Origin: Antedon mediterranea
Taxonomy: Eukaryota; Echinodermata; Crinoidea; Comatulida; Antedonidae
Assembly: GCF_964355755.1 (NCBI RefSeq)
Contig: NC_092678.1
Location: forward strand, 20,928,922 to 20,992,921
Direction of reading: 5' to 3'
DNA: 64,000 bases
Numbering within the stretch: the first letter of the stretch is position 1; every line of letters starts with the position of its first letter. The notes beneath the pieces were generated by a model that was not told the origin of the DNA, did not search any database, and saw only the letters and a program-made list of their open reading frames with translations. The position numbers and the translations under genes were made by a program. Positions 35,290 to 58,733 of the stretch are shown here, one piece after another.

Positions 35290-35372
35290 TATGCCTCTTT
35301 CTCCGTTGTTGAATATTTCTTTTCAGTAGCTGATAATGTTCGGCTTGCATAACTTATAACTCTGGTTTCACC

Positions 35373-37294
35373 GTATCCGGATATTCACCCCCTGGACATT
35401 TACCCCCCGGAAAACTACCCCCGGACAACCACCACCTGGACCACTACCTCCTTAGGACAACTACCCCTTTAGGACAACTACCCCACGGACAAATACCCCC
35501 TTAGGACAACTACCCCCTTAGGACAACTACCCCCCTGGACAACTACCCCCTGGACAATTACCCCCTAGGAACAATTACCCCCGGACAATTACCCCCCCCC
35601 CCCCCTCCCCCGGTAATTACCCCGCGGACAACTACCTCTGACATAATACTCCCCGTAGGACAACTTCCTGGACAATACTCCGAGGGCAAATAATCTTTTA
35701 GGACAACTACCTCCGTAGGACAACTAACCCCTGGACAACTACCCCCGGACAATTACCCCCTAGGAATAATTACCCCCTAGGAACAATTACCCCCGGAGAA
35801 TTACCCCCCCCCCCCGGGTAATTATCCCGCGGACAACTGCCTCTGACACAATACAACTACCTCCTGGACCTGGACAATACTCCGAGTGCAAATAATCTTT
35901 TAGGACAACTACCTCCGTAGGAAAACTAACCCCTGGACAACTACCACCCAGAAAACTATCCCTTTAGAACAACTACCCCCCGGACGGATAACTACCACCC
36001 AGACCATTCAACAACCTGACTCTGCAACAGCGTATAATAGGAATTAATAACTATATTTTAATTCGTTACTTTGACGAATTACTATTCATTATTGTAAACA
36101 AAAGTAAAAGATTGAACATAAATATAGCCTGGTATAAACTGAAGATTGTCACACATGATCATAGGATAGTCGAACGTATTATATAGTACTCCCTGTATTT
36201 ACTGTAAAGACTGGGTTCGCTAATAATAATAATAATGTTTGCGTCAGGACAATGCTTCGATAACCACTGGTCTTAAAAGAATTAATTTTTGTCTCAAATT
36301 TGTCATTTGTATTTTTGTACACTTGAAGAATAATATCACTTTTGATATTTGACCTCAATGTTCACTCACCGAATAAACGGCGATCTTTAAATAAATTCCC
36401 TCAAATAAACGGTGACCATGTCTATTTCCATTAGATTATACCACCTCCCATTGAATAAACAACTTTCTTCCAATAAATGTCCACCTAAAAACCACCTAAA
36501 CAATAAACAGCCCAGGCCGTTTTTTTAATAAATACGGTACTTTAAATCTAGCACATCGAGGGTCTAGCGTGCTGTTAAACAGAATAATCGGTTAAAAACG
36601 GGTGTTTCGAAACTAGAGTCCCGAGACCTTTTATACGAAAAGGGAGACCCACGTACGAAAAGGGAGACCCCACTATACTAAAAGGGAGACCCCACTATAC
36701 GAAAAGGGAGACCCTAATATACGAAAAGGGAGACCTAAATATACGAAAAGGGAGACCAAATATACGAAATGGGAGACCCACTATAAGAAAAGGAAGACCC
36801 CACTATACGAAAAGAGAGACCCCACTATACGAAAAGGGAGACCCTAATATACGAAAAGGGAGACCCAAATATAGGTATCCCTTTTCGTATTGGGTCTCGT
36901 GTCAGGTCTCTGGTCTCGGGTCTCTAGTTTCGAAACACCCGTTAAAAACAGATGATTTCATTTTAACAGAAACCGGTCCTATATATTTGTCTACTTTTGG
37001 ATTTGGGGGGGGGGGGGGGGTGGGGGTAGTTGACCGGGGGGTAGTTGACCGGGGGGTAGTTATCCTAAGGGGGTAGTTGTCCTAAGGGGGTAGTTGTCCT
37101 AAGGGGGTGGTTGTCCTAAGGGGGTGGTTGTCCGGGGGGTAGTTGTCCGGGGGGTTGTTATCCTAAGGGGGTAGTTGTCCTAAGGGGTAGTTGTCCGGGG
37201 GGTAGTTGTCCGGGGGGTAGTTGTCATAAGGGGGTAGTTGTCCGGGTGGTAAACATCCGGGGGTAATTGTCTAGGGGGTAGGTGTCCTAGAACC
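35373..37294. mobile_element. Fold-back element with minisatellite arms, inserted in gypsy RNase H
   Basis: It is flanked by the 9-base duplication GGTTTCACC (35364-35372 and 37295-37303). The left arm (35380-36000) is a C-rich array of ~16-17 base units like GGACAACTACCCCCTTA. The right arm (36995-37290) is the same array inverted (GGGGGTAGTTGTCC). The interior holds AATAAACGGC-type strings (36370-36540) and a nested 341 bp element. No transposase is present. Confidence 0.85.
36600..36940. mobile_element. 341 bp terminal-inverted-repeat element with internal minisatellite
   Basis: The ends GGGTGTTTCGAAAC and GTTTCGAAACACCC are inverted, the similarity running about 30 bases inward. The 9-base duplication GTTAAAAAC flanks it (36591-36599, 36941-36949). 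Inside are about ten units of TATACGAAAAGGGAGACCC. A 9-base duplication with G-rich ends suggests Mutator-like mobilisation (inference). Confidence 0.85.
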
Positions 37295-37303
37295 GGTTTC
37301 ACC

Positions 37304-37885
37304 ATTGTATTTCTGAATTAAAACTCCACCAATGCCTACATTGCTTGCATCTTTCACCAACTGAGTACTTTCTGCATCTAATCTGAAATAGCCTAAACAT
37401 GTTTCATTAGTTAAGCATTTCGTAAGTTTTACATAACTATTTTCTTGTTCAGACCCCCAATAGAAATTACAATCTTTTCGCACTAGTCGTCTTAAGGGTT
37501 CCGCAACTGTAGCTAAATTTGGAATGTATCGTGCTGAGAAGTTAACTAGACCTAAGAAACTTTTTACTTCTGCAGCTGTTTTTGGTCTCTTTGATTCTGC
37601 CAATGCTCTGACTCGCCCAATTGTAGGTTTGATTCCATTTGCTGACAATATGTGACCCATGAATGTTATCTGTGATACAGAAAATTGACACTTATCCCTG
37701 TTGAGAGTCAAATTCTTCTCTTTAAATTTCTCAAGCACTACACGAAGTCTGTCATCATGTTCAGTCTGTGTTCTCCCGTGTACAACAATGTCATCTGATA
37801 TGTTAGCTACACCTTCGCATCCACTCAGCGTCTGACTGATTACTCTTTGGTACTTTTCAGGGTCAGCATTTATCCCGAACATCAA
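37304..37885 (-). pseudogene. gypsy reverse transcriptase and start of RNase H
   Basis: It carries the catalytic ISDDIVVHG block, the FMGHILSANGI and KSFLGLVNFSARYIPN thumb motifs and the first RNase H strand (KDASNVGIGGVL). Coding stops at the fold-back insertion that begins at 37294. Confidence 0.9.
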
Positions 37886-37947
37886 CCTTTTGTAGCGATA
37901 AAGACCTTTGTTAGTTATGAAAGTTGTGATGTTTCGTGATTGCTCAT

Positions 37948-39099
37948 CTAATTCAATTTGGTGATGTCTAATTTAGAGAACACTGTACTTTGATTCATTT
38001 CATACAACACTTCGTCAACTGTTGGGATTGGATGCCTCTCCCTTTTAACTGCTCGGTTGGCCTCCCTCATATCTACGCAGAGGCGTATATCCCCATTTGG
38101 TTTTGGCACTACTATGACTGGACTTACCCAATCACTTGGTTCGTCTACCCTTTCAATTATGTCAAGAGATTCTAACTCATCTAATTTATCACTCACTTTA
38201 TCTTTGAGACTAAACGGTATTCTATACATGCTCTGAACAACTGGTGTTACCTGTTCATCAATAAATAAATGTAACTTATAATCTTTTAATTTACCAATAC
38301 CTTCAAATACCTGTGTATACTTATCTTGTACACTATTTATCACTTGTGGTATTACAATATTTAACACTCCAAGCTTCATTGCCGTATCACCTCCCAACAA
38401 AGCAGGGCCTTTCTCTTTTAACACATATACATCTGCTGTTATTTTAGGCTCAGTATTATTACCTGTACCTTGAAAAATTGACATGTTCGTAGTAAATTTT
38501 CCTAACAACTCTAATGGTTTTTCTGACCCATATGCATATAACTTTCTGTTTGTCAACTCAGATTTGCATTTAATTTTCTTGGATTTTAACTGTTGCCATA
38601 AATACTGATCTATGATATTAACTGTAGCACCACTATCAACAATCATTTCTACCTTATGTACATCCATACAAACATTTATCTTTGTAGTTTTAGAATTATT
38701 ATTTTGTATACCAAAAGCATAGTCATCGTCTTCACTTCCATTTTGAACATTACTAATACCACTACTCTTTTTGTCTTTACCTAATTTAGTTTTGCAACAA
38801 ATAGCAAAATGTCCCAAAATTTTACATTTATTACATTTCTTGTCTCTTGCAGGACAACATTTATCCTTAGCCAAATGTCCTTCTCTTCCACAGCGAAAAC
38901 ATTTCCGGTTATCTTGTCTATCATTGAACTTTGACTTACTTGTTCTGTTAGGCCTACCACTTGAATTTCCAGCTTGGTACCTGTTTCTGCTCATCGTGCT
39001 TGATCTTGACCATCTCTCATTCCTCACTGCATTCATGTTTGTTGTTGTTTCCACTCCATTAACTTCTTGTGACATCTTCTTTGCTTGCTTCTCACTCAT
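37948..39099 (-). pseudogene. gypsy nucleocapsid, protease and start of reverse transcriptase
   Basis: 383 codons: two CCHC zinc knuckles (CFRCGREGHLAKDKC and CNKCKILGHFAICC), an aspartic protease site DSGATVNIID, then the start of the reverse transcriptase (WVSPVIVVPKPNGDIRLCVD). The frame is lost near 37945. Confidence 0.9.
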
Positions 39100-39109
39100 T
39101 TCAAATGTG

Positions 39110-39637
39110 CTAGCTATTGCTTTTAAATTTCAAAGTATTTCCTTTTTCTAGCAATTTTAGTCTCAGTCTATTTGATTTGCATTTTTCAATAACATGGTCT
39201 CTAATTAACTCATCAACATTCGCATCATCAAATTCACATTTTGCAGCCTGCTGCCTCAATCTGTTTATAAATTGGTGAATAGTTTCGTCATCACCTTGCG
39301 TCAGTTTTCTAAAACAACGCTCATACGGTACGTTGGTTTTCATAGCAAATTGTTTATTTAATGTGTTTACAACAACATCATACTCCTCTGTTCCGTTCTC
39401 CTCTGTTAAACAGTCATATATGTCCTGTACAGCCATTCCGGCGCAATGCAATAACAAAGCTTTCTTTTGATTTTTGTCTACTACTCCTTTACCAGTAGCA
39501 TATAATTCAAAACTGCGAAGCCATTTCTTCCACCGTTCAGCCGAAGCGTGCACATCGTTTTCAACGTTCACAGCGGTCATCGTTACAACAGTATTAAAAT
39601 AAATATATCGCCAAAAATTACAGTATTGAAACTTCAA
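39110..39637 (-). pseudogene. gypsy gag, N-terminal part
   Basis: The minus-strand frame of 175 codons includes the helical capsid-like segment (RWKKWLRSFELYATGKG; the CFRKLTQGDDETIHQFINRL region). The frame shifts by one base near 39125 before the nucleocapsid part. Confidence 0.85.
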
Positions 39638-39676
39638 ATCACTTGTGGTTCGATATTCTGCTTAACTCGTCGCCAA

Positions 39677-40177: not shown

Positions 40178-43100
40178 AGTCCAGGGGCTTATGTCATTTT
40201 GTAGGCTTTTGATGTTAATTGTCGGCACCAACGTTTTTCTGACTCAGAATTTTCCTCTGAACAAGAAAAACTTTGGTGCCCTTTTTTTCGACCATGGCAA
40301 GTGGCCGCCATTTTGATTTTCAAGATGGCGGACTAACTTTAACAAAACTGATCATGTGTGGTATCATTGGAAAGGGAATACAATACTGATCATTTATTGC
40401 CATTACACCCATACCCCAAAATGCATAGCAACAAAGATAATCGCAATTACATTATGTCATGTGATCAAAATGAGGTCAAAGGTCAAATTTCGACCACTTA
40501 TGAATACCATTGTGTTTGGTATCGACGGAAAGCTTTTTTTATACTTAGTACAGCTGTACATATAGTTTTTACATTCATCACACCATTTTCTAGAAATTTT
40601 AAATTTTGTCTATAAATAATATAGCTAACAACTTATTTCAAGTTTAAAATAAGTGAGTTTATTACTGTAACGATATGTTAAGCCTTACAACCTATGTTTT
40701 TTCGACCTAATTTAAGGTCACAAACTACATTTTATGTAAAAATAAATACTATATGATCCTATTTCGATAACTTTTATCGTTTTTAAACTGTTCAAAATGT
40801 GAAAAATATGTTGATTCTAATAATTTAATCGGCCCGATGTAAATCCCACAAGGCATCGTGCGAGGATTGATATTTTCATGTTGATATGGATGCACGACCA
40901 GTTTCGGTCGGCCATCATGAAAACAAATAAGAGAACCATAAACTTTTTATATGTAAATTGACAGACCGCAGCGTACAATTAACCAGCAGTCAACAATACC
41001 GCGCACAGATATATATGTAGATAATTATGTTTGTGAACATGCTCAGAATGAATTTCTGACTGTTTAGATTGCTTGTGCATCATGCGAAGGTATATCTTCA
41101 TTTCCCATGTCCGTAATATTGGGCCAAAATTCCGTAATAATTATGGACGTTCCCAACTTTGAAATAACAGTGTTAAACAGTGTTAATGCTTCAACTCCCT
41201 TTTTAAATGCAATATTTTATTATTTCTTTCTCTCAAAATTAGTCGACCAAACTCTCGCAACACCGACTTATTTTCTCTTGCCTGTTGTCGAGTCAACGTA
41301 ACCAAAAATGGTTTCATTCAAAGATTATCAGAGCTTTTTAATTCAATTTCTATAAGGATAAAACTATCGATATTTTGTTGACACTTTGTCTAAATTTAGG
41401 TCTAAAATTCTTAAATCGATTTAAGTTTGCCATTTTGTATGTTTCATGTTTTGTATTTTTATGTGCTTTTAATTCTATATTTATATCTAAAGAGTTTTAA
41501 TGCATCCTGTAATTGGCGATTTTTCGCGGTTTGGATGTGAAATAAAATAAATAAAATAAAATTGCTTTTTTCTGCAAATTTCGATATTTTTTTTCTGGAG
41601 TGTGGTTTAAGCAACACTGTTGTACAGTTTATAGTGGATAAATGAAATTTATTTTTGGAAATTGTGGTTTTATTGACTTATTTAGCATTTTTTCCAAAAT
41701 ATTTTTATCTACCGTAACTTGTTTTTATTCCATAGTCGCGTAGTGTGTGTTACCGGCAGAAAAAAATATGCGGTATACGATCAGTATTGCTGTTTGCTAC
41801 TGTAGCCCGATATAGTTTAACAAAATTAAATTAATATGTGAAAACACTGACCCATCTACCGCCTCTGATTCAGAGGAAAGCGATGTTGAAATTTGACTAG
41901 GTTAGCTAAGTGTACCCAATACACAATATTGAATGTCAGTTTGGACATGGTCACGTCAGATATGGAAATGTTATTATCTTGAATTGAAAGATAATGTTAT
42001 TATCTTGGTATATTTTATATATCCACTGGTAGTTCTGAAGTACTATTAGGGGCGGTAGCAGGACCATTTGAATTGGGTTGCCCAAGAATCCAGGGCTGTC
42101 GGTACTGAGCATATGCGCCACAGGCCCCCATGGTTAAATGACACCCCTAGCATGGTACTCTCACACGTAAAATTCACGATAAATGGCAGCTCTAGTTCAC
42201 CGCCGGAAATGACACTCGATATCGGGCTACAGTAGCAAACAGCAATACTGATCGTATACCGCATATTTTTTTCCGCCGGTAACACACACTACGCGACTAT
42301 AGTATAAAACAAGTTAGATAAAAAATATTTTGAAATAAATGCTAAATAAGTCAGTAAAACCACAATTTCCAAAAATAAATTTCATTTATCTACTATAAAC
42401 TGTACAACAGTGTTACTTAAACCACACTCCAGAAAGAAAGAAGCAATTTTAACACTGTTATTTCAAAGTTCGGAACGTCCATAATTATTACGGAATTTTG
42501 GTCCAATATTACGGGCATGGGAAATGAAGATATACAGTACCTTCGCATGATGCACAAGCATTCTACTAAACAGTCAGAAATTCATTCTGAGCATGTTCAC
42601 AAACATAATTATCTACATAATATGTGCGCGGTATTGTTGACTGCTGGTCAATTTTACGCTGCGGTCTGTCAATTTACATATAGGCTCTTATATATGATGA
42701 AATGGCAAAAAACATTTAGTATGAAATTAAGGGTGTTGCAACACCCTGTGTCCGCCCCTGACTATACATGGTGGCATACTGTATAGGCTTCATTTATACA
42801 ATACATCTGATAGTCATTTTGTATGTTAAATCCCCAAAACCTGCAATTGTTGTCGTTTTGTAAAAATAATGTATATATATAATTTTAAAAACAATAAACC
42901 AGGTCATGTCTTGTCTTAAATGTACGTTCTAAGGTTAATTAAGATTAAAAGATAACGGTAACGTACGAACATCGTACGCTTGCTATATGCTTATCATGAC
43001 GTTGTCTCATTGCTGAAATAATTTTCTTTCCTTTTTTGGCAGATGAGCTTTGCCCCGTTGTTAAATTCGCTGATGACACTAGTACTATTGGTCTCATAGT

Positions 43101-44720
43101 TTCAAACAATGATGAAAATTATCGTAGCGAAATACAAAGATTTGTTAAATTTTGTGACGATAATTATCTCCAAATAAATGCATCAAAAACAAAGGAGATG
43201 ATCATTGATTTTAGGACTAAACATAAATTTAATTTTCAACCAATCACTATCAAAGGTAAAGAAATTGAAATTGTTGACCAGTACAAGTATCTAGGAATTG
43301 TTTTCAATGATAAACTGAGTTGGGGAGACCATATAGACTTCATCAGCAAAAAATTAAGTCCCAGAATGTATTGTATGAGAACTTTATATAAATTTAACTC
43401 CTGTGATTTGATGTTACTTTCATTCTATAGATCCGTTATATGTAGTGTTTGGACGTATTGCCTCTCCTGTTGGGCTGGTAATGTTACCGGAGGGAATAAA
43501 GGACGCCTTGAAACTTTCATCCGTCGGGCTGGTAAAATGATTGGTCTGGAACTGCCTTCCTTTACCGATGTGCACCTAGAACACCTCCAGAAAGATTTCG
43601 AACGCATTGAGTCGGATGCCTCTCATCCTCTCCACAAAGTGATCATAGACCAACTTAATCCAAGTGGTAGATTGAGGCTCCTCAGTGTGAAAACAAATCG
43701 ATTTGCTAAATCCTTTATTCCCTCCGGTATCATCCAGTACAACAGGAAGTAAAGAAGATAATTTTATATTGTAATTTTTTAGATGTTTTTATATGAATGG
43801 TTTTATGCTATATTTGTTTTTATAGTGTTTTCTTTGTTATTATGACGAGCAATGAATTTCCTTTTGGAGGATCAATAAAAGTTATCTTATCTTATCTTAT
43901 CTTATCTTATCCGTTAATACAAATTGAGGCAGACCTGGTATTTTCGCCAAAAAGTTATGGTTCTGTTATTTGTTTTGACGATCACCGACCGAAACTGGCC
44001 GTGCATCCATATCAACACGAAAATATCAATGCCTTGTGAGATTTAGCGGGTCGATTAAATTATTATTATTAGAATCAACTTATTTTTCACATTTTGAACA
44101 GTTTAAAGACGAAAAAAGTTATCGAAATAGGATCATATAGTATTTATTTTTACATAAAATGTAGTTTGTGACCTTAAATTAGGTCGAAAACACTTAGGTC
44201 GTAGGGCTTTAACACATTGTTACAGTAATAAACTAACTTATTTTAAACTTGAAATAAGGTGTATAGCTATTTATATACAAAATTTAAACTTTCTAGAAAA
44301 TGGTGTGATGAATGTAAAAACTATATGTACAGCTGTACTAAGTATAAAAAAAGCTTTCCGTTGATACCAAACACAATGGTATTTATAAGTTGTCGAAATT
44401 TGACCTTTGACCTCATTTTGGTCACATGACATAATGTAATTGCGATTATCTCTGTTGCTATGCATTTTGGGGTATGGGTGTAATGGAAATAAATGATCAG
44501 TATTTAATTCCCTTTCCAATGATACCAGTCGCGATCATTTTTGTTAAAGTTAGTCCGCCATCTTGAAAATCAAAATGGCGGCCACTTGCCATGGTCGAAA
44601 AAAATGGCACCAAAGTTTTTCTTGTTCAGCGAAAAATTCTGAGTCAGAAAAACGTTGGTGCCGACAATTAACATCAAAAGCCTACAAGTGCCTTTTTTTC
44701 GACATAAGCTCCTGGACTAA
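40178..44720. mobile_element. 4.5 kb imperfect palindromic element
   Basis: The outer ends TAGTCCAGGGGCTTATGTC (left) and their inverse (near 44703-44720) match. Inverted similarity continues through 40230-41220 and 41570-41815 on the left, against 42230-42700 and 43915-44660 on the right. The centre is about 41820-42225. The arms are broken by a LINE-tail-like insertion (about 41300-41565, ending in AAATAAAATAAATAAAATA) and by a LINE fragment (43020-43912). No transposase is visible. Arms hold AAGATGGCGG (YY1-like) and AGGTCAAAGGTCA boxes. Confidence 0.75.
43020..43912 (+). mobile_element. 5'-truncated CR1/L2/Rex-like LINE fragment
   Basis: An open frame of ~238 codons (43036-43752) begins in the reverse transcriptase catalytic block (VKFADDTST) and includes LQINASKTKEMIIDF and YLGIVFNDKLSW, typical of Jockey/CR1-group enzymes. 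The 3' end is a short pentanucleotide array (TTATC) at 43882-43912 instead of poly-A, as in CR1/L2-like LINEs. The upstream part of the enzyme is missing. Confidence 0.85.
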
Positions 44721-45130
44721 TTGGAAAGTTCAATCATCTTTAAGCAGTTTTAAAGCTCCAATAACAAATTATTCGACTGTTGAATGTATTTGACGCACAT
44801 TTACTTTTATAGCACCATGTTATACACTATTCTACCCTATGCAATTAACATCGGAATGTAAACACTAACCCTATGAAATTGACATCGGAAAGTTAAATTC
44901 AAAATCATTCGACTGGTAAATGTATTTTTTGCTTTCAACACTTCCTTATAGCACCCTGTTATGCTAATAATCATAGTATTTGTAATTGTCTATAAATGGG
45001 TTATGGATTTCCAGTTTTTTTAAATATATAAATAGGCTAGGTAGAACATTTGCATCGTCACTCACCGTCCACCTATTGAAGACGATTGATTGAGTGATCG
45101 GTTTTCAAGTTACTTTAATACTAACTCAAA
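44721..45130. other. Upstream flank of gene B
   Basis: Two diverged copies of a ~180 base unit (ATTCGACTGTTGAATGTATTT near 44772, ATTCGACTGGTAAATGTATTT near 44908) are followed by the likely core promoter. Confidence 0.5.
45025..45033 (+). promoter_or_regulatory. Candidate TATA box of gene B
   Basis: TATATAAAT lies 98 bases before the start codon of gene B. Transcription starting about 30 bases downstream would give a 5' leader of about 70 bases. No other support. Confidence 0.35.
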
Positions 45131-45983
45131 ATGGATGGGCCAAATCAGGATATTCTCATTCAACTCAATGAAATTGACTTTGGAGAGCACAGCATTGAGC
45201 TTGGAATAGGTTCAACTTCAGCTGTCTTTGAAGCCACACTAACAACGGATAACAAAGAAACTAAAGTAGCCGTGAAGATGTATCAGAAGATCGAGTATAA
45301 AGAGGTTAACATTCTTAAAGATCTTGGTCACAAAAATATTATAAAATTCTACGGTCTACTTAACCATAGAATGAAATTTGGTATTGTCTTAGAATTAGCA
45401 TCTGAAGGTAACTTGGGTCAGTTTTTAGCTAGATTTAGTCAGGAAAGTAAAGATGTTGGATTACCATCGCGATTACCGAAAAGGCAATTTGTTCAGTGGA
45501 GTATTGACCTCGCTTCTGCCGTTCAGTACTTGCATGAGAAGAAAATAATCCACAAAGACATCAAATCATCGAACTGTTTGTTAAGCGACGATCAGAAAAA
45601 CGGGTTTAATGTACTTAAGTTATGTGATTTTGGGATTTCTAAACAAGTAGAAACTACGATAATCGCAACTTCTGGAGGATGCACAAAACGCTGGTCTTCA
45701 CCTGAAGTTATCGAATATCCAACGATGGTATCTAAAAAATCCGATATGTTTTCATTGGGTGTTGTTAAGTGGGAATTATGGACCTGTGATCAACCATGGA
45801 AAGGCGTAGGAGAGTTTGAAATGTCAATGAATATAGTTAAAGGCATATTACTGGTGCTTCCTAAGGATTTTCCGGATGAATTGCGTCCCATGATGAAACA
45901 ATGTTGGAAGAAAAAAAGAGAAGAACGTTGCGATATAGATGAAGTGCTGGATTACCTAGAAAACTTCAGAAATTCTATTAATG
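45131..45983 (+). CDS. Gene B exon 1: TKL-family protein kinase domain
   Basis: Numbering from ATG 45131: GIGSTS 25-30, VAVK lysine 49, helix-C Glu58, HKD 141-143 with Asn148, DFG 166-168, SPE near 190-192 and Asp205. The overall pattern (HKNIIKFYG, GIVLELASEGNL, SDMFSLGVVKWELWT) is closest to ZAK/MLK-type kinases as far as I can judge by eye. Like gene A it has HKD in place of HRD. It is complete in one exon, ending at GTAAAT in phase 1. Confidence 0.9.
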
Positions 45984-48900
45984 GTAAATGATTTATTATT
46001 TTCTATTCGAAATATATATTAAATAATAGTATTACAACATGCAATGGTTTATTCTTCATACTCTATCATGATTTACTGTTGAGAAAATTATCATTATTCT
46101 GTTATCTGCTGTTTTGATTACATCATATGTCAATGTCAAGTTATTTATTTCTGACATCATTCACAAACTCCCCATTATTTTCTAGAATCCATGTGTCTTT
46201 TCAAAGTTTTGCTGTGTTACTTCTTAATAATATTGTGTTGAATATGTTGTGGATAGCTTAGGTACAATTGCTTAAGTATATTATGCTTTGTTTTTAGTTT
46301 CAGAAAGTGAGTAATTAAAAAAAATCAAATGGCCCAGGGACGAATCACCGAAACGTCCAGGGCATAATAATAAGAAAATATCAGCTTTAAAAAAGAAAAG
46401 GTCTGGCTGCAATATTCCTATATTAGATGTGTAGACACGGTGCTGTGTTAAATATGTGGATACGGTGCTGATGCATGGGGTGTATGCGTTGTATAAATTA
46501 AGAATGTGAACAATTAGTAGCCCCAAAATTTCAAACAAAATTTATTAAGATTGAAACCAAATAGATACAAAGGGCTAGAGTATAACATAACAGCAAATTT
46601 AAAATGTGATTTTATATTTGGAAGTATTTTTTTAAGAATAATAGTTGATTACATGTTTGCTGTATACATTTAGATACTGATCAAATGCCTTTGTATGTAT
46701 TGTATAGAATATACACAATAATAATCATAGAGGAAATAAAATAGTTAAATATTTATTTCCTTCATGATATAATTACCATCCCACACAGTTACCATTTTGT
46801 GTGGGTTGCTTTTTAAAACATCGATACTCTTTCAAAACCTTTCATTTTATCTAATGAGGGTTAACGTGTAGACAATGGTGACGTTTTTAGTTTCTATTTC
46901 TTTGTGGAAAGACTCTCGACTGTTATTTTTGTCATTTACGTTTGCTACAATGTTTTGGGCTACTAAATTTGACATTTGGATGTAAAAAAAATCTAAACTA
47001 AAAAAGGAACAGAATTTATATTATATTTATAGATTATTCTATTTCATCAGATTTATTGCACATTTTCAAATTCATTGCAAATTAGTATACTATTTTTTTG
47101 ATTGCACCGTTTAAAAGAATACAACAAGAAACGATGTACATATAACCATATTATTAGGCCTATATTTGAAATTCATGCCTGTATCTGAGCTTTAAATACT
47201 GTAGCAGTAAAAAAATTGAAAAGCCTAATCGTATGTATTAACATATATATTGAAATTTAATATTCTCAACTCAAACCATGGAGGTATCAAATAAATCCGT
47301 GAATGGAACACGTCATCGAAGTGACAAATGATTTCGGCGCACCCGCCTCATACCACACGGCAATTGAGTTGAAATATGTGAACAATTTTACAGCACTAAC
47401 CTGATTTTACAATGCCTTTATTGTGTAGAATATACACCATTGAATAATTCCTCACAATGTAACTATTGCATTAAAAAGGTTTTTACAAAAGTATCTTTAT
47501 GACTGTAGCAGCAAATATTTTAGTAATGTAACCTAATCGTTTATACTTAATAAAAGTTAAAGTGAAAATTATTTTTCTCAATTGTTAAAATAACAAGAGT
47601 ATACAAGAATATGTACAATAATAATATTTTATACATAATAGTCGCAAAACTACGGTACAGCACTGAAGCGCGACTTAATACGGATCATAATCCATAGAAA
47701 GTAATACGAATTCTGCTCATGTTAGTCATATATTTAATTTTTCAATTTCATATTTTATCTTTTTTTTACATATTCTGATTTTGGCGACACAAAATATGAT
47801 TTTAATTTCGAAACAAAGGATACCATTTTATTTTAAAGAAAAAAGAGGAGTGTTTTAAATTTGAAAAGTTTACTATTAAGTTTACGGAACAAGTTACTTA
47901 TAATAAAGTGTATGTATTTCAATATTGCGTTCTAATTAGAAACACCTAAGCATCCACACCAAAGTTGCTCTCTATCCGACGATAAAGGGTCCAAAACAGA
48001 AAACGACGATGAAAACCAGCCGAGCAGTTACAACAAAGAAGTTACATCGGAACCTATTGAAGTCGAGAATAGACCGGTAAATATGGACAGCCCACAGAAA
48101 GGGTACGAAGTATTGACCGTAAAAGAAGATTTAACATTAATTGATCAACCGTCTTTTAGCAAAGGTAAATATGCTACCGGTACAGATCATGGATATGGTA
48201 AGATTATTGAAACAAATTATTACTACTGTCACTAATGTACGAATTAAATCTATATATGTACCCAATTGTTTGTGATTACCATTACAGCTCGGGAAAGATT
48301 ATAGAATGTTAAGGGTATTTTCATAAAATATTAAACATTTAGAGCATTGAAAATATTTTTTTACAGACGATTCTTCAATTCCCACTGGAAAATTACGTGA
48401 GGTATGTTTATTTATTTATTTTTTTATATAGTTTTCAGTACTTTTATTTATAGTATTCTTCAGTCTCCTACAGTATTCGAACGCTAATATTTTTTTTTAT
48501 AAATGTCTGTAATTCAAATTCATAGTCGGATTAAAATTCCGCAAACAACTCGAATCCCAACAGTACTTCAATTAAACAACAATGTGTAAAAATTCAAAAA
48601 AACTTTTTTTTTCGAGTTGAAATGCTTATTTTATCTCATTGATTTACTCACTCTATTTAACATAGGAAATATCCAAGCTGTATAAACATATTGAAGGAAG
48701 TTGCTTAAGTCTAAAACAGGTCATGGAAGAATTTTTCGATAAAAGACGATGTCATGAGTTTTTAAGTGTTGGAGAAAGAAGACATCTGATGATAAATATT
48801 GTTGAGGTAGAACAGTCAATATCGAGGTAATATCTAAAGTTTTATGCGATTCTTAGATTAAATTGTTGTTCAATTGTCATTCTGGTGATTGTATGATCAA

Positions 48901-51900
48901 AATAATTGTACTCCAAATACATAAGAATTGCCTAGGATTAGATACATTAGGGAGAATGGAATTTTTGATTATTTTGAAGACAGGTATCGGTTTTTATATA
49001 CAAGAAATAACGTAGCATAATAAAATCTGACAATCATCTCATAAATTAATATAAAATCATTGCAAAGTATAGGTTAAAGCTGGTAACACGTATATCAGGG
49101 TATACCATTAGGCATTTCAGTGGAACAAGTTCCTGGAATGTTCTTATACTGGTCTAATGGCTACGGGGGTACGGTAGAGGGTTTTTCACACTTGTTCCGG
49201 CACGGTTCCGGTCCGGCGAATAGAACTTGAATATTTCGTTTTCACAACGCTCGTAAAAACATTTACGTTCGATTGGATTTGCCGGCGCCGGACCGTAACC
49301 GTGCCGGAACAGGTGTGAAAGACCCTTTATACCAGCTTTAATAAAAGAGTGGCTCAAGTCGTTTAAAGTCTGTTATTTTATTCGGCAGCTTATATGATTG
49401 GTTCAAGACATGTCAGTGGCGCATTCCTACCGTATGTGGATTAATAACCAACATCTTTGATTATCTTCAACCGATTGCAAACTTTGCAGTGTATTCACAT
49501 GTCCAGATGAACATGATTGAATCAATTAGGTGTGTTTTTATAAATGCTTAATATACAAGATTGATATATTATTATTATTATTGAGTTTTGTATGTCGCTC
49601 CAGGTGTGTGCAAACTCTGGAGTTTTGCTAAGAGATGTGAAAGGAGAATTGGAGAAGCGGGTATTTTAGAGTTTGCATTAATACTATTTTATAACATTGT
49701 TCGGGAATATATACCGTATATTTCGGTGTATAAGTCGCACTTTTGACACGCAAATTTGACCTCTAAATTAAGGGTGCGTCTTATACACCGAACATAAATG
49801 CCTCACCACACAGATTGTACATAGGCCTAGGCTATCGTCACCTCGTTTGCTAGGCCTGAGTAGGCTAGGCCTAGCTACAGTAACTAACTAACGTAACGGC
49901 AACCTGCTTCTGCCTAGGCCTAGTTTTCAAGTCATTTTAGCATGATGTTATACTAAATATGATGAAAAGATTTGTTCATTATGGCGCTCCGATAAAATTT
50001 CATTTGTAAACGTTTACGTCGTACGATTGGAATAGTATTTATTTATACAGTAGTTATACGCACGATCGCCGTACCCCAAGCGCAAGCCCTTCTTTTGGTG
50101 GCACATGGTGTACGGTATTCGACTAGTATATTCTCCAGGTGATTATAGCATGGACCTAGCGTACACACTTCTCGGATACATAGATACTAATCGAATACGA
50201 TTGTCCATGAAAACGTTCGCCCTCTCGAAATGATCGAGCGAGGCTAGCCCACACACGTGCGTGTTACACACACGGTCATGCACTCGATGTTGCGGCGAAA
50301 CTCATGAATAACAAGTTAGAAAGAACTTGTTGAGGCTGGGCGCGGTCGAGCCTAGGTAAGAAAAAACCTAAATAAAGGACGCCGTTGTAGATATAACAAA
50401 ATATATTATTACAATAATATTGATTACAATTTAAAAAAACATTGTTTTGATGAAATATAAGGTGCGTCTTATACATCGACGATATAAAAAATACCGATAT
50501 TTTACTCTCAGTTGGGGGTGCGTCTTATACACAGGTGCGACTTATACACCGAAATATACGGTAGGTACATATATTATCACATAAAGTCAAGAAGTTATTG
50601 CAATAATTCCTCCAAATTGATTTGCATGTGCATGTATGATGTATTCAATGGGACCTTCAATACTGAATTACAGCAAAATTATTTTATTATAGGCGATGTA
50701 CCGACAATGGAGGGAGCTTAGCAGACGATGAAGACGCAAATACTCTGACGTTTACAGATGTTCAAACCATTCTTATGAAACAAGCTAATTGGCTGAAAAA
50801 ATTCCAGTGTATAATACAAGTAATTATTCAATCGTTAACCATTATTGTGTGCGGTTTTTAGATGTAGTTTGAAACCTTCCCAGTAATAAAACAGCAATCA
50901 TTTTGAATCTACCTAATCATTTTTTAAAATATAGTTTAACAGAATAAATTCCAGTTATATATCCAATTACTTCCAATTCACAACCCCTTTCGTAATGGTT
51001 TTCAGATGTACTTTAACAATTCATGTTATTTTTCATTACTCCCGCGAACTAAATTTGTCATGAAAGTCCATGTATGACTGTGTAAAAACAAATAGTGAAG
51101 TGGGGCAGCCTAGACTCCATTTTGGTATATTGGATCCAAGATGGAGGATAATATTGAAACTTTGTATAAACATGATTGTTTTGTCGTTTTAAAAATATTT
51201 ATTTTTATTAAACGATATCATTATTTTTGGGAAAGGGTGAATAAACTTAATTAAAATTACACAATGGCCTATGCTAAATTTGATTTGATTTATCTTTATT
51301 GTTTATATATACTATACCTCTCTCTAAAGGTTCTGCAATATTGGTGAGTTTTTTATTAAATATTTTATCTATGGTTTTTGTATTGTGCATTTATATTTGA
51401 ATTGTATATTTTATTTAAGGGCATTCAAAGCGCTCTGACAGCTAAGATGACTAAAGAAGAATCGGTCATTGACGAATTCAAACAGTGCTGTAACAAACTG
51501 AAGGAAATGGTTGATAATTGCAATGATCATGAAAATCGAATAATTAACAAGATGGAAGATCACATTACATCTTTAGTACCTAAGCTCCAGTTTACAGCAG
51601 AAGAAGAGGAAGAAAAAAAAGCCCAGGTACAGTATTTTATTAACCCCTTCTTTATTTAGATTTATTACAGGGCAACCCGCCTGGACAAAAAATGTGGCAG
51701 CATGGTTACAGTTTTTAAATCTAATATATGGATAGAAACATTTAATTGGTTTTTTTTTCTTAATTTAAAAAAAAAAAGATTTCTAACGAAAAAATCACCA
51801 AAAAAATAGTTAGAAGATATTTTTTATTTTTTTTTAAATTAATTTACTTTATTTTTCAACTTTATCCACTGATATAATCTTTATTTTTTGTTTTTTTTTA

Positions 51901-54900
51901 ATTTTTTATATATATTTATATAAATTATTAACTTGTAAAGGCAATCCTGCTACAAGATTTTCATCTTCTTGGGATTCTGCCTTCGTCCATTACTTCTTTT
52001 TTTTAAAATGTCAGTCTGTCATTACTGTTTTTTGTATTGATGAATTGGTGTCTTTTGAATTGAATTGAATGGGGGACAATGTAATTAACAAAAATATTAA
52101 ATTTACAGAAATTGATGGTTTATGGAGAGTGTTGGGTTCAAAAGAAGGGGGACGTTACTGTTCTTGAGAGCACAAAGAGAGGAAAAAAGCGATTAATAGA
52201 AAAAAGGAAATGCACAATTATTGCCTTCGTCAACACATTCCTAATTGTACAACCTAACATGTAAGGTTTTTGTTTATGTATATGTAGAGTCAGGAGGTTT
52301 TATTAGTTTTGATTGTAGTTTTCATCTAGTATTTGTTACTCGTGTATTTAAAATGCCAATTACTTAATTAGCTGTTTTCTTACAGAGATGTGTTCGAAGT
52401 AGACGATTGTATCCACAAGAAAGATATACAAGTTGAACGTGGAGGCTATGAAAACGTCGACAAGAATTTTGGAATGGAGGAAATCAAGAATGAAACGGGA
52501 GAGAGAGTTAAATTGACTAAATTGGATCCCTATTCAAGACATTCAGTCCAGAATTATATTCTTTATTTCGAAGACAGGTATCAAGTTTTATTTTACATAT
52601 ATTTAACATTATTATTACATAACTTAAAAGAAACATAAGATAATACACAGTCGTCGTCCTCCAACCCGCAACTCGTTTAATAATTATTAATTTCTTTACA
52701 CACGTAGAAAAGGATGCATTATAAGATAATTAATTCTAGGCTTACCACCACACCAGGATCCCAGTTTTTTACGATTTTGAAGGTCATTTAAATGGTACCA
52801 GTTAATGTAATTTTGTTTTGTTTGACTGATCACCCTTATATTATGGCCACGGAGAAATTCAAATTTTAATATATCAAAGGGGGTGGTGTATGCACATTCA
52901 ATTTTTTTAGATCTGTCATATTATGATGAAATCAATATTTTTTTGATAATCTTATTATAGAAGCGAAATTTCGGAATGGTTAAAAGTACTGAAGTTTTCG
53001 GAAAGAGAGAGTTTAGCACAGGAAGTGGAGTATAGTAAGCTTTACATTACATGTCAATTACATAGATTTTATTCAATTACCATAAATGATAAATGTTATT
53101 TAAAGTTTGTAAATGCGGCGTAGTGCAGACCGAGCTTCACGCATTATGTGAATGCCCCTTAGACCTTCTGCCACATACGCCAAAATTGTAATAATTATAT
53201 ACATTGTGTGTATAGGCCTACTGTGAAAATTTGTTTTTGAAGTAGGCCTACTTAGAGTTAGTGTAAATAATATCTAAGTTTGTTATTATATTTCTATTGT
53301 CATTCTTGTACTGTACTATGTGTGCCATGTAATAAAGAATAATAATATAGATAAACTATTATTGCCATTAGGGAAAAAACATAGGCCTATCATACAGTAG
53401 GTAATGCAAGTACAAAACAGCCGTTCAGTTACTGATAACGATGTGTGCGTCTCTTTTAATTAATTGGCATTTTTCATTTCATGGTAACATAATAGTTTCT
53501 ATAATTTACAATGTATTCCTCTTAATTCCAGAAATGGCTGCAGTAGGCCTACCACATTGTGTTTTTTTTTTAAAGTTTGTATTGTTAAACACATCATTGA
53601 TTATCATGCATGTGTAACTAAAGTATAAATGTCTAATTTTAATTCTTAGTCACGCCTCTTGGAATAATGAATGAAGCAAAGGAACAACCTACATCTGAAG
53701 ACCAAGTCAGTTCTGGAATGGGTAAAGTATTATAGTTCTTCCTCTAGTAACCTTTGTGTTTGTGTACATGCAGTTTTTATTCTTCATGCTTCAGTGTTTT
53801 ATAGATCAGATAACAGTTCATTGTCCTGTCTTGTTTGTTTGTTCTATATTATATTTACAGTACATTAAAATGTTGCCGATTGTTGCCATTTAACTTAATT
53901 TTAGTTTTTTAATAGAAATATCTTGTTTTATGGTAGAAGACATAAAACATAGAATATCAACAGCATAGCATTTTGGCCATTATTTCTCAAAAAGTCTCTG
54001 AATAAGTAATATAAACGTAAACAGTATAGATCTTAGAAAACGGGTTGCATGGCTTTAAATAACTTTATTTTCTATTTTTTTATCCCTAGAGCAAAATGAT
54101 CATGAAGTAAAGGTCCGTTTGATTTTTTTTTTATTTACTATTTTAAAATATCAAATTGGTTACTATCCTCGTCTAATCGAATAGGATTATTAGAGAATAA
54201 TGGATTATATCAACTATTTATATAATCCAACTATATTTTATCTTCCGTTCGATAGTAAACGCTAAAACACAAGATTATGACTATTCAATTGTATTCATTC
54301 ATTTTTAAAGATATTATTCGATATTGCCGATCTGAACAAGAAGAATATTAAAAGTCTTTCAAAACTCAATGAATTATACATCAATGATGCAGCCTTTAAT
54401 AAAATTCTTGAAGAAGGAGAGAAGCACCACCTCTATCGTAATGTTACTGAAGTCAAAGACATGGTTGAAAGGTATTTATTTTATAAGTGTGTATTATTAG
54501 AACTGTCTAGTTTCCTATATCACGGACTGCTTTTTTTTCATTTAAGACATTATTCTGTAATACATTACATGTATACAATTAATTCAATGCGGTAGTAGAG
54601 AGTAGTAGAATCAAACAAATATTATGCATAATCCGTATTAATTTTAAGAAATTGTGAAATTCAATACAAATTCTAAAACCTCTTTATTCTCTTCTAAGTT
54701 TTGACAGTGTTTTAGAATCTAATCGAAGAGACAGCGTTGTATACTTTACTGAATTAAATAATCGGTTAAAAGAAGGTTCTTTTAGGCCGATTGTTAAATA
54801 TCGCGCCAACATGTGTTTTCAACAGAATATGCTGGAGTTTCAAAGGTATAATGAAAAACGTTTTAGAATGCCATGATTATTTATGTTCCTCATGATATAC

Positions 54901-57900
54901 AGTAGGCCTATCCTATTTGTCATCATTACCTACTATCGATCCCAATGTTTTTCAACTGTATTACCATTGCCAACATTTTCATTCAAATTCCTCGTAATCG
55001 CCATCAACTCACCAAATCATTATTCATAAAATTATCAAAAATTACCGTTGTTATATTTAATCATTAGTCGATTAGAATGATTATGATTATCTCAATAAAG
55101 ATATACATCAAGGGTAATCCACAAACAATTACTCATGGTATATACTGCGTAGTATTTAATGTTTATTTTGCTTTTAACAGAAAACACCGTACGACATTCA
55201 TAGATGTGCTTGAGAAATGTGAACGTACGCAAAGTGGAATATCTTTGATGGACTTAGAGGCACGGCTTATGAAACCATTAGATTGGCTAACATGCCTTCA
55301 TAAAAAATCTAAGGTACGGTAGAAAATTATATGAACAAATTATTAAACATATGGAAATTATTACTATTATATATATATATAAGACGGTTTAACCGAGGAT
55401 ATCAAAAGGCAAACAGTTTATTTTATGTACAAACGAGCGAGGGAGTGGCCGAGCAGTTAAGACAGTGAAACCGTAATTACGTAGCCGCATAAAGAAATGT
55501 ATTTATATTGATTCTGTACCGATCATGTCTGTCATGTTTAAAAGAAATGACATTCATTTTTACTTCGTATTCAGGCTTTGAACAGCAGTGCAACATGTAC
55601 CATGTTTGAGCATGATCAGCTACAAACTGAAACTATTAAGAGGCTAGAACATTTTATCCAAGAAGATCAAGAGATGACGAAAAGTATAGAAAGAAAAAAA
55701 AGCTCACACATGACGTCAGTACTTCTCGATTTACAAATACCCTCACCACGCGATCATCAACTATTACAGGTAAGTCAAAGTAATTTATTTACGAAGAGTT
55801 TACGGTTAGGCCTAGTATGTTTACATAACTTGCGTTTTGTCGAGACTAACTCAAATGAACAAAATATCGTCACGTTACACACATATTTTTCATTGCATGA
55901 TGGAAAAAAAGTAAGCTTATTACTCTACATAGCACTACTTTATCATCGATACCTATACCGTATGAATATGCGCAAGAATAGGCCAACATTACGAGAAAAT
56001 ATGACTCCATTGCACCATAAGAGATATTATGAAACCGATAACTAAGAGATATTATGAAACCGATAACTATGAGATATTATTTTTTTTTTCAAAATTATAG
56101 AAATTATTAAATATAAAGGATGACTGGTTGAACAAGCATGGTTGTTTTACATTATATAGAAAGGGTGATGTGTTGAAGAAGGGTATGAGAAAAAAATATC
56201 CAACTATGAAAGAGAGTATCCATATCTACGCTTCAACCTCAGTAATTATAATGAATTCGTAAGTAACAACAACAATGTTTTTCATTAGGGTGTGTTATAA
56301 AGTTCAATCATTTGTGCATATCCGTGATCCATTTTGAATAAATAAAAATAGGAAGAAGGTGTAGATAATATTATCTTTTGGTAAACGTTATTCTGTTTAT
56401 TGTGGTATTGTATTATTATTATTATCATTTTGAAACAGAAAACAGCTTTGCAAATGCTATGATCGAAATTATGCTGATATTGAAAGTGTGAACACTCGAA
56501 ACCGTAAAGGTTGGATGCACGAAAAGGGGTTTTTGTTTAAGTTGTGGATATATGAGAGAGTAAGCCAGAACGACGATTACCAGCCAGTTGAACATCTTCT
56601 TCGATATACCTCTGAGAGCGACCAAATTGTGTAAGTTTACATTTGTTACTACTATTGTATGGTTCTTTTCTGCAATACAATACTACTACTAATTTACGTA
56701 TTTTTGTAACTTTTGTAATTTTTTCTTTTAGGAAAGATTTCATGAAATGGAAAGTAGCACTTGTCGTCTCTACAGGCGAATCTGGAAAATATGATGACTA
56801 CAGTAAGTGTTCATATTTAAAAAAATGTTTTTATAACACACATCCAACATCAATATACCTAAATGACTTGCAATTAACTTAAAAGATGATAAGCACAATT
56901 CAGTCCTGTACTATAGCATTTTTTAGTAGAGATGCCAGGGGAGTGTGTCCAGCTCTAACCATGGAGAATATATCGTGCGTATGTAGCGTATATATTTTTG
57001 TTGTTTGAACTATGCCGTTTGTGTGTGTGTTGGGGTAAACCTAAAGGTACCGGTACTTCGTGATATGTGATTCTGACGGAACAAATGCTCATTATACTAA
57101 AGACATAAAATAAATTAATAACTAAACATAACCTTGTAAATAATCTCTTTCAAATACCCAATCAAAAATAACCCCAAGGCTTCCAAGTCTATGCCGCCAT
57201 TCAGCCAAAGAACTGGCTTACAGAAAACCATTGACTTAACCATGTCTTCTTAAAATGAGGAAAAGTAAGGTGAGGAAAAGTAAGGTAAGGAAAAAATCGC
57301 CCATTGCACACCATGTTGCAGAATTAGACCTATATTTTTTATAGGGCAAGATTATGTACTTATACCTGGTATTTAGCTCACATTGAATTTAATTCGCGCA
57401 GGCCTTTTAAATTGAAAAATTACTGATATTTGATTGTATTACGATTTTTTTTTTTGCATTGCAATCGTGAATATGAAAACGTATGTGCATATAAACGAAC
57501 GCCCATAAATAAATTAATGAATAAATTCCTCTTAGGTAACAACAGTCTTTACCTTTGCTCTATAGCTCGACCAAGACATATTATATCAAAGCCGTTTACT
57601 ACTGACAGAGACAACGAGCTTGAACTCGAAGTGAACGACTTTGTGGAACTTCTAGAACATCGAGAGGCCATCGGTCAAGGTAATTTTTTGAGCATGAATG
57701 TCTACTGAAAAGTACAGTGTAATATTTAAATAATAAATATATTAAATAATTAAATATTAAATAAAATATTTATAAATATATTCAAAATACAATTTTACAT
57801 TGTTCTGTTTTCGGTTAGTCTGGGTAAAAGGAATTCGTTATGAACGTGATGGAATGTCTGGGTGGTTTCCACGCGACCGTCTAGGACCAGAACGTTCCAG

Positions 57901-58733
57901 TGAATACAGCATTGGTCAGAAAATAAAGCTACGATTTAAAAATGAAAGAGAAAATAAGGGAGATAGAAGGCATAGGTAATAGAAAAGTTTAATGTTTTTA
58001 TCATTAAAATTAAAGAATTAATGATCGCCTGTATCTTTTCCACTTTGAATGAATTTTTATTTTAGTTATGTTTTTTTATAGCCATTTTGAACCTGAAGCA
58101 ACTTCCACAAGATCAAAAAAATCAACTAAAGATAGATTAAAACGCTTCTCACTTCCTTCTTTACCATTTTCTTTCACAAACACCCCTGTCGTTCAGGATA
58201 AAGAGAATACTGTAGCCAAGAAGAATACAAAATCCAAGAAAGATACAGCAGCAGCAGCTAGAAAGGATGGTACAGAAGATGATGAGATAACATATGTCTT
58301 TTCTGAGTCTGAGATTGAGCATATATATGATGAAATATCGGAATCCGACGACGAAGTATATTATGATGACGTTGAAGTTCCGATAGAAGATATGTTTTAT
58401 AACTATGACTACGCACGTGGCCCACAAAGAGTAGTTCCATCAAGTCCCGATTACATGAATCGGGATAAAGAGAATACTGTAGCCAAGAAGAATACAAAAT
58501 CCAAGAAAGATACAGCAGCAGCAGCTAGAAAGGATGGTACAGAAGATGATAAGATAACATATGTCTTTTCTGAGTCTAAGATTGAGCATATATATGATGA
58601 AATATCGGAATCCGACGACGAAGTATATTATGATGACGTTGAAGTTCCGATAGAAGATATGTTTTATAACTATGACTACGCACGTGGCCCACAAAGAGTA
58701 GTTCCATCAAGTCCCGATTACATGAATAATTAA
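45131..58733 (+). CDS. Gene B: TKL kinase, two DH-PH cassettes, SH3, duplicated acidic tail (intact)
   Basis: Twenty-two exons join with consistent phases into 1,424 codons plus stop: 45131-45983, 47940-48197, 48367-48401, 48666-48826, 49389-49529, 50693-50819, 51420-51626, 52109-52260, 52386-52577, 52961-53034, 53650-53721, 54090-54112, 54311-54471, 54699-54845, 55181-55313, 55575-55769, 56101-56258, 56439-56630, 56732-56802, 57566-57679, 57819-57975, 58082-58733. Approximate residues: kinase 20-280, acidic linker 285-380, DH1 383-594, PH1 595-735, DH2 766-977, PH2 978-1117, SH3 1118-1185, tail 1208-1424. No in-frame stop. It probably acts in the cytoplasm or at the membrane, coupling a MAP3K-like kinase to Rho-family GTPase control; that is inference. 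It lacks two small exons found in gene A (19331-19370 and 19776-19816). Confidence 0.85.
45984..47939 (+). other. Gene B intron 1
   Basis: About 2 kb of A+T-rich DNA after the kinase exon. No exon or recognisable transposon seen; short open frames look like chance. Confidence 0.5.
48666..53034 (+). CDS. Gene B first DH-PH cassette
   Basis: Exons of 161, 141, 127, 207, 152, 192 and 74 bases. Landmarks match gene A: HEFLSVGERRHLMINIVEVE, ANFAVYSHVQMNMIESIR, FTDVQTILMKQANWLKKF, then the PH strands and the C-terminal helix EISEWLKVLKFSE. The reading is by pattern; a profile search would settle it. Confidence 0.65.
49713..50562. mobile_element. Inverted-repeat DNA transposon in gene B intron 5
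   Basis: The ends CCGTATATTTCGGTGTATAA and its inverse at 50543-50561 are flanked by TA on both sides. Internal copies of GGGTGCGTCTTATACACCGA sit near each end. I recall similar 'TATAAGTCGCAC' termini in DNA transposons of many animals, but cannot name the superfamily. Length ~850 bases, no transposase. Confidence 0.75.
54311..56802 (+). CDS. Gene B second DH-PH cassette
   Basis: Exons of 161, 147, 133, 195, 158, 192 and 71 bases. DH: HHLYRNVTEVKDMVERSF, FRPIVKYRANMCFQQNMLEF, ARLMKPLDWLTCLHKKSK. PH: DDWLNKHGCFTLYRK, IHIYASTSVIIM, FLFKLWIYERV, closing helix DFMKWKVALV. Sizes and phases match the first cassette exon for exon. Confidence 0.7.
55436..55574 (+). repeat. tRNA-derived SINE fragment in gene B intron 15
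   Basis: GGGAGTGGCCGAGCAGTTAAG resembles a tRNA A-box region and is related to the head at 955-1180. No full tRNA fold is present. Confidence 0.45.
57566..57975 (+). CDS. Gene B SH3 domain (two exons)
   Basis: Exons 57566-57679 and 57819-57975: DNELELEVNDFVELLE, VWVKGI, GMSGWFPRDRL. The first exon is the same length (114) as in gene A and differs little in sequence, so this domain is under constraint. Confidence 0.85.
58082..58733 (+). CDS. Gene B last exon: acidic tyrosine tail made of two 89-residue repeats
   Basis: After a basic start (KSTKDRLKRFSLPSLPF) the exon holds two near-identical 267-base units, at 58197-58463 and 58464-58730. Each runs from DKENTVAKKNTKSKKD through the acidic IYDEISESDDEVYYDDVEV to SSPDYMN. 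Only a few bases differ (two G-to-A changes turn Glu into Lys). Each unit has several Tyr in acidic context. The tail has the same general character as that of gene A but is not easily aligned with it. Confidence 0.88.

Follow-up and report, generated by a model that had tools for sequence, protein, structure and literature searches.

The ephexins (NGEF/ephexin1, ARHGEF19, ARHGEF5, ARHGEF16/ephexin4 and ARHGEF15) form a family of guanine nucleotide exchange factors (GEFs) in which a DH-PH module is followed by a C-terminal SH3 domain. TRIO and kalirin combine two DH-PH modules, an SH3 domain and a kinase in one protein; their kinase is C-terminal and of a type other than the one described here. 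Kinase domains also occur in the animal protein obscurin, and MAP3K20/ZAK and the MLK-like MAP3Ks carry other domains in the remainder of the protein. Here we describe a gene of the crinoid Antedon mediterranea, called copy A, which occupies positions 45131-58733 of the window we analysed (64,000 nucleotides, C9:20928922-20992921; the genome totals 354 Mb in 18 contigs), together with its paralogues, copies B, C and D. We consider it fairly probable that copy A is one gene, from a family of at least four, for a TKL kinase under the control of a tandem array of ephexin-derived and probably exchange-poor DH-PH modules. In ephexins 1 and 3, according to PMC6406967, an inhibitory helix lies before the DH domain and is released through phosphorylation by separate kinases; the same source describes ephexin5 as lacking an SH3 domain.

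Gene model and ephexin descent of the DH-PH modules

Spliced by hand, copy A comprised 22 exons on the plus strand, with AG/GT at all internal borders, one frame and a single terminal stop. Ending exon 2 at 48164 reproduced exactly the 1,424 codons of the original prediction; ending it at 48197 (donor gtaaga) gave a product of 1,435 residues. Exon 1 (45131..45983) holds the entire TKL/MAP3K-like kinase domain; the phase-1 donor at its end precedes an in-frame stop by two codons. Exon 2 (47940..48197, alternative donor 48164) encodes an acidic linker and exon 3 (48367..48401) a linker before DH1. These are followed by DH1 in exons 4-7 (48666-48826, 49350-49529, 50693-50819, 51420-51626), PH1 in exons 8-10 (52109-52260, 52386-52577, 52961-53034), an inter-module linker in exons 11-12 (53650-53721, 54090-54106), DH2 in exons 13-16 (54311-54471, 54699-54845, 55181-55313, 55575-55769), PH2 in exons 17-19 (56101-56258, 56439-56630, 56732-56802) and SH3 in exons 20-21 (57566-57679, 57819-57975). 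Exon 22 (58082..58733, stop 58731-58733) was read directly as a basic KxxxxRLKRFS stretch followed by an acidic, tyrosine-rich tail. Within it, a 267-bp unit stands twice, in frame and in tandem, with 99% matches (58196-58727); the duplication is either recent or an assembly artefact. The order of kinase, DH-PH, DH-PH, SH3 and tyrosine tail in one frame, which the original prediction had proposed, was upheld both by this exon rebuild and by the layout of the paralogues.

An extra exon at 49604-49660, resembling a missing DH helix (KLWSFAKRCERR), can be accommodated only by using a weak donor and moving the following acceptor, and it was dropped. The 22-exon model, in which exon 6 mirrors exon 15, gives the following exon a start that copies B and C share in both position and phase. 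The queries of the first Pfam scan, the genome search, the paralogue tblastn and one blastp variant included this stretch.

Pfam was blind to the DH-PH modules of copy A, and other evidence was therefore needed for their labels. A Pfam profile search, suggested with the original prediction as a check, returned the kinase (PK_Tyr_Ser-Thr, 7.8e-51, in a scan of a 1,448-residue variant) and a sub-threshold SH3_1 match (0.0015), but neither RhoGEF nor PH in copy A even at E 10, in that scan and in a repeat on the clean modules. SH3_1 matched all four copies at E up to 10 (best 2.4e-6). RhoGEF was found in one of the four module-2 sequences (6.7e-4), and none of the four module-1 sequences matched RhoGEF or PH in Pfam.

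The PDB was more informative. Module 2 with the SH3 domain (421 residues) matched ARHGEF16/ephexin-4 over residues 4-415 in a single-sequence phmmer search (E 3.8e-10), which at E up to 10 returned nine sequences: four of ARHGEF16 and five matching in the SH3 region only, myosin IB entries among them. With a four-copy profile of the same segment the ARHGEF16 match strengthened to 7.8e-18 (positions 3-414 of 440), and ARHGEF16 was the only RhoGEF matched at E up to 1; the ARHGEF16 SH3 structure 1x6b was matched by profile at 7.7e-5. The two modules of copy A are related to each other. Four-copy profiles of modules 1 and 2 aligned over 223 columns in hhalign (E 1.9e-13), and blastp gave 22% identity over 280 columns for the variant with the extra exon 49604-49660. 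In the hand-built model, exons 4-10 and 13-19 have pairwise equal phases (0-2, 2-2, 2-0, 0-0, 0-2, 2-2, 2-1) and lengths of 161/161, 180/147, 127/133, 207/195, 152/158, 192/192 and 74/71; PH1 thus parallels PH2 in phases and lengths, and the Trp of its last helix is conserved. By these comparisons the two modules are one duplicated seven-exon cassette. We take the DH-PH labels to be right, although Pfam did not see the domains in copy A, because of the ephexin match, the homology of the modules and the introns in common.

These introns were compared with those of an ordinary ephexin from the same genome, the one ephexin among 11 stretches around genomic RhoGEF matches that were searched with the ARHGEF16 segment. 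This gene (C3:28366307-28376051; hand-spliced, with an approximate end of the last exon) encodes a single DH-PH module and an SH3 domain, and its product matched ARHGEF16 at 2.5e-63 (phmmer). With the database size set to 177,635, its E values against the second modules were 4e-12 for copy D, 2e-7 for B, 3e-7 for C and 1e-5 for A; none of the first modules reached significance (best 0.11). Eight of its boundaries, with phases 0, 2, 2, 0, 0, 2, 1 and 1, coincide with those of module 2 and SH3, as positioned by eye. One additional intron interrupts its last DH exon, and the PH-internal intron of both fused modules is missing from it; that intron would either have been gained before the cassette doubled or lost in the ordinary ephexin. 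On these matches and coinciding boundaries, the fused family is therefore descended from an ephexin.

Kinase motifs and DH exchange residues

The nearest solved kinase was MAP3K20 (PDB; 2.3e-35 with the single sequence, 3.6e-45 with the four-copy profile), with MAP3K12, MAP3K9 and CTR1 near the top. An EGFR-labelled chain came fourth in the profile search and many tyrosine kinases followed, in what is a ranking rather than a tree of all kinase groups. These matches favour the original assignment to a TKL, MAP3K-like kinase. The catalytic Lys (VAVK/VVIK), HKD, DFG and [AS]PE are kept in all four fused copies, and the motif HKDIKSxN is the Ser/Thr form. The kinase of copy A looks working. Its confinement to a single exon suggests capture of a processed copy, which probably entered ahead of an ephexin-like gene.

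The DH domains gave a different picture. A Gln-Arg pair and the basic residue following it are important for exchange by DH domains. A Glu, likewise expected to be needed for it, and a GTPase-surface Asn presumably correspond to Tiam1 E1047 and N1232. These two Tiam1 residues are described as making contacts with Rac1 (PMC7884829). ARHGEF16 and the ordinary ephexin retain Glu, Gln-Arg, the basic residue and Asn. In the fused family the Glu column is changed in all eight DH domains of the four copies, to Ile in DH1 and to Asn in DH2, and the Gln-Arg pair is replaced by Asn-Trp in every DH1 and by Asp-Trp or Glu-Trp in every DH2. The basic residue is Lys in DH1 of all four copies and Cys, Cys, Ser and Arg in DH2. 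The Asn survives in three DH1 domains (A, B and C), is Ala in the fourth (D) and is lost from every DH2. With Lys (four of four) and Asn (three of four) retained on the surface that faces the GTPase, DH1 is the likelier GTPase-binding domain; DH2 looks purely structural. A view of DH1 as an intact catalytic DH was withdrawn when alignment with ARHGEF16 and the ordinary ephexin placed Ile in the Glu column.

These residues bear directly on the original proposal that one polypeptide activates a Rho-type GTPase through a DH domain and starts a MAP kinase cascade. That both parts belong to one gene agrees with it, as do the Lys and Asn of DH1, a Glu adjoining the expected position there, and purifying selection on the DH domains (ratio of nonsynonymous to synonymous substitution rates, dN/dS, of 0.37-0.59 for DH1 among A, B and C). 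The replacement of the Glu and Gln-Arg columns in eight of eight domains, when ephexin-4 and the ordinary ephexin keep them, tells against it, and a MAP2K substrate is purely hypothetical. Rho activation by copy A is doubtful, and the proposal as a whole unlikely.

We favour instead one polypeptide in which an intronless TKL (MAP3K-like) Ser/Thr kinase would be followed by an acidic linker, a doubled DH-PH module, an ephexin SH3 domain and a tyrosine-rich tail. Kinase activity would be the output. Through contacts with membrane, partners and perhaps a Rho GTPase, the DH-PH pair, the SH3 domain and the tail would position and gate the kinase, without efficient exchange of the nucleotide on the GTPase. 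DH1 may still bind a Rho GTPase, with DH2 in a structural role. Since the kinase sits at the end where ephexins hold their inhibitory helix, self-phosphorylation of the linker or tail would be a natural, if hypothetical, step. More tentatively, we speculate that the two modules are former exchange factors which can still sense Rho GTPases or membranes, directly converting Rho state into kinase output within one polypeptide; this further step is possible rather than probable, and if true it would define a new kind of animal signalling protein.

Several observations weigh against the favoured reading. The sole PDB match of module 1 alone was ARHGEF16 at E 0.04, below significance. The glycine loop of the copy D kinase departs from the usual form. 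Loss of exchange is read from residues, and the Glu of DH1 lies one position from the expected column, so that its loss there is possibly a matter of alignment.

The gene family and the probable joining of kinase and GEF exons

Searching the translated genome for relatives of the GEF half gave at least 57 matches, at least 38 of them outside copy A; 51 of 67 candidates were scored, and copy numbers are thus lower bounds. At least four fused genes are present, each with a one-exon kinase followed by the same GEF exons. Copy B, from tblastn and exon models, is a complete paralogue on the plus strand of the window (16836-27360; kinase 16836-17697, GEF exons 18100-26603, tail 26718-27360). Copy C lies 91 kb upstream of copy A (C9:20883119-20898029) and copy D on a different chromosome (C6:23307433-23322114). 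At E up to 0.01, tblastn of the copy A protein recovered, in order, 17, 17 and 15 of 17 comparable exons (1, 4-10 and 13-21) in B, C and D, a comparison blind to phase; exons 7 and 15 of copy D were recovered by the exon script only. Exon 11 has counterparts in B, C and D, and exon 12 a clear one only in B. Tyrosine-rich tails of differing sequence were also found in B and C in a comparison covering A, B and C, none being defined for D; that of copy B is acidic too.

The exon script accepted only copy A phases and exons free of stops, so the equal phases it reported in all copies were partly imposed; a single exon of copy B was adjusted manually. In a control with phase left free, 45 of 48 paralogous GEF exons took both copy A phases, and the statement is weakened to that figure; the three that differed were exon 5 of copies B and C, at the acceptor, and exon 17 of copy D, at the donor. 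Such agreement speaks for a single gene rather than two adjacent ones. Copies A, B and C are 64-67% identical to one another in the kinase and 63-67% in the GEF half, with 42-51% and 46-49% in comparisons with D. Of 37 segment comparisons, 29 allowed dN/dS to be computed, with values of 0.08-0.83 that were highest in the linker; those with copy D are rough, with dS about 2 or more.

Between copies C and B lie two kinase-only relatives (C9:20907145-20908014 and C9:20915228-20916160), both terminating in DNG.SFYSTVI*. The second, E2, has DVG in place of DFG, and its 5' flank is nearly identical to that of copy A. The TATA-like box predicted by direct reading about 100 bp 5' of the copy A kinase start codon (45025..45034, plus strand) also precedes E2, and a similar one precedes copy C. 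No GEF exons were found after the kinase-only copies in C9:20900001-20928000 or the first 16.7 kb of the window (921 bases between them not covered), save for one weak match (E 0.023) on the minus strand, within the open reading frame of a retroelement. In an unrooted tree the kinase-only copies group with A (support 0.987) and B groups with D (0.967). Because of this grouping with copy A, they look like later offshoots of a fused copy.

Whether kinase and GEF halves are one gene turns on the junction between exons 1 and 2. In all four copies a phase-1 donor closes the kinase exon (gtaaat, gtaaat, gtaatg and gtaggt), and read-through stops 2, 13, 15 and 5 residues past it; the donor is therefore common and the stop is not. 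The exon 2 acceptor and the first seven bases after it are identical in A and B (AG followed by AAACACC). The linkers of A and B share 43% over 74 aligned residues, those of B and C are partly common (tblastn E 0.007), and exon 3 has counterparts in B (TGKSRE) and C (TGKLNE).

The alternative is two neighbouring genes, one for a single-exon kinase and the other for a tandem-ephexin GEF, that duplicated together. It would account for an in-frame stop only 2-15 residues beyond the junction and for the very existence of two kinase-only copies, which share the same stop. Other results also count against a fused gene. For C and D, the script that picked the donors asked for phase 1, and a second donor was listed for D. 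The A and B linkers were not linked by tblastn at E up to 5. Over its initial 111 bases, exon 2 of A agrees with that of B at 62%, no more than the intron background (mean 55%, maximum 63%). Intron 1, over the same length from its start, agrees at 66%, above that maximum, so the match of donor and linker in A and B is partly recent ancestry. In copy D, the sole distant copy, neither exon 2 nor exon 3 was found with confidence. The joining of exons 1 and 2 is itself a prediction from sequence alone. Neighbouring genes would nevertheless have had to keep their order in four of four copies, on two chromosomes and down to 42% kinase identity, with a phase-1 donor in each, stops at four places, an acceptor common to A and B and no common start codon seen, and the kinase-only copies seem to stem from a fused one. 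A single gene is, on balance, much likelier than two, and we regard the two-gene account as quite unlikely.

Within the favoured single-gene model, the weakest spot is the exon 4/5 junction, where a purine-rich acceptor lies 8 nt from an element resembling a miniature inverted-repeat transposable element (MITE). This acceptor was not recovered at the copy A phase in B and C when phase was free; both points speak against the model there, and the exon 5 donor, gtgtgt, is a second weak spot. The MITE-like element, in intron 4 (window 49074-49341), has outer arms of 12 nt that pair perfectly and inner arms of 44 nt that do so at 91%. With it adjoining the purine-rich acceptor, splicing of exon 5 in copy A may be disturbed. 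Such an acceptor, the DVG of E2 and a partial copy with stops could together indicate a decaying pseudogene cluster; the partial copy (window 28085-29640) is a fragment of a further module 2, out of order. Decay is very improbable as a general explanation, given open exons in all four copies, retained kinase motifs and dN/dS below 1 in each of the 29 computable comparisons.

Elsewhere in the window, an open stretch at 10796-11161 encodes a Death domain (Pfam 5.4e-10). Open reading frames of long terminal repeat retrotransposon type lie in pieces on the minus strand at 33637-39661, with RNase H and integrase recognised by Pfam in 33640-35322 and a zinc knuckle and protease-like motif further on recognised by eye. 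Reverse-transcriptase fragments were seen at 2733-4379 (minus) and 43000-43749 (plus); RVT_1 was below cut-off in both, and zf-RVT above it in 2733-4379.

Comparison with known systems

As judged from the PDB and this genome, the closest relatives of the GEF half of copy A are ephexins. Copy A has the family order of DH-PH then C-terminal SH3, and the eight intron boundaries in common with the ordinary ephexin agree. It differs in having two DH-PH modules rather than one, a kinase where ephexins have their own N-terminus, a tyrosine-rich tail after SH3, and DH domains changed at the exchange residues. Because of the two modules and these changed residues we do not file copy A as an ephexin proper, and regard its GEF half as one of ephexin descent on the comparisons above. 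The original prediction had the architecture right and missed this origin, along with the seven-exon duplication, the paralogues and the ephexins as the proper comparison; its Rho activation was not supported. Its distinction from TRIO and kalirin stood: the kinase of copy A is N-terminal, and PDB searches at E up to 1 returned no structure of the TRIO family for either module. MAP3K20/ZAK and the MLK-like MAP3Ks are the nearest solved kinases by similarity in a structure database.

LISK belongs to the TKL group. In Dictyostelium, one LISK and one unique STE-group kinase are reported with RhoGEF domains (PMC1420674). The pairing of kinase and RhoGEF in one protein therefore has precedent and, from that account, is not new in itself. 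The LISK, likened to copy A by description only, is amoebozoan and has its RhoGEF beside an IQ motif, and the description given in that source mentions no tandem DH-PH or SH3 for either kinase. In titles and abstract beginnings of the open-licence literature, we found no description of a TKL kinase with tandem ephexin-type DH-PH modules.

Obscurin is similar to copy A in being a kinase protein with an SH3-DH-PH unit altered at GTPase-contact residues. Purified human obscurin DH-PH fragments are reported to show no exchange activity and to differ at conserved GTPase-contact residues (PMC10118190), and thus human obscurin, as described there, offers a precedent for a kinase protein with an exchange-less DH-PH. 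It differs, in the same account, as a giant muscle protein with a DH-PH of the Trio subfamily and the order SH3-DH-PH.

Against this background, copy A is of interest in three respects. Some ephexins are described as switched on through phosphorylation by separate kinases (PMC6406967), and copy A would have a kinase built into the chain together with a doubled module. With the expected exchange residues gone and the kinase motifs kept, it offers a testable case of an exchange factor turned kinase regulator. Finally, a single genome holds a series that runs from an ordinary ephexin, through the fused and doubled form found on two chromosomes, to kinase-only copies that look like later offshoots.

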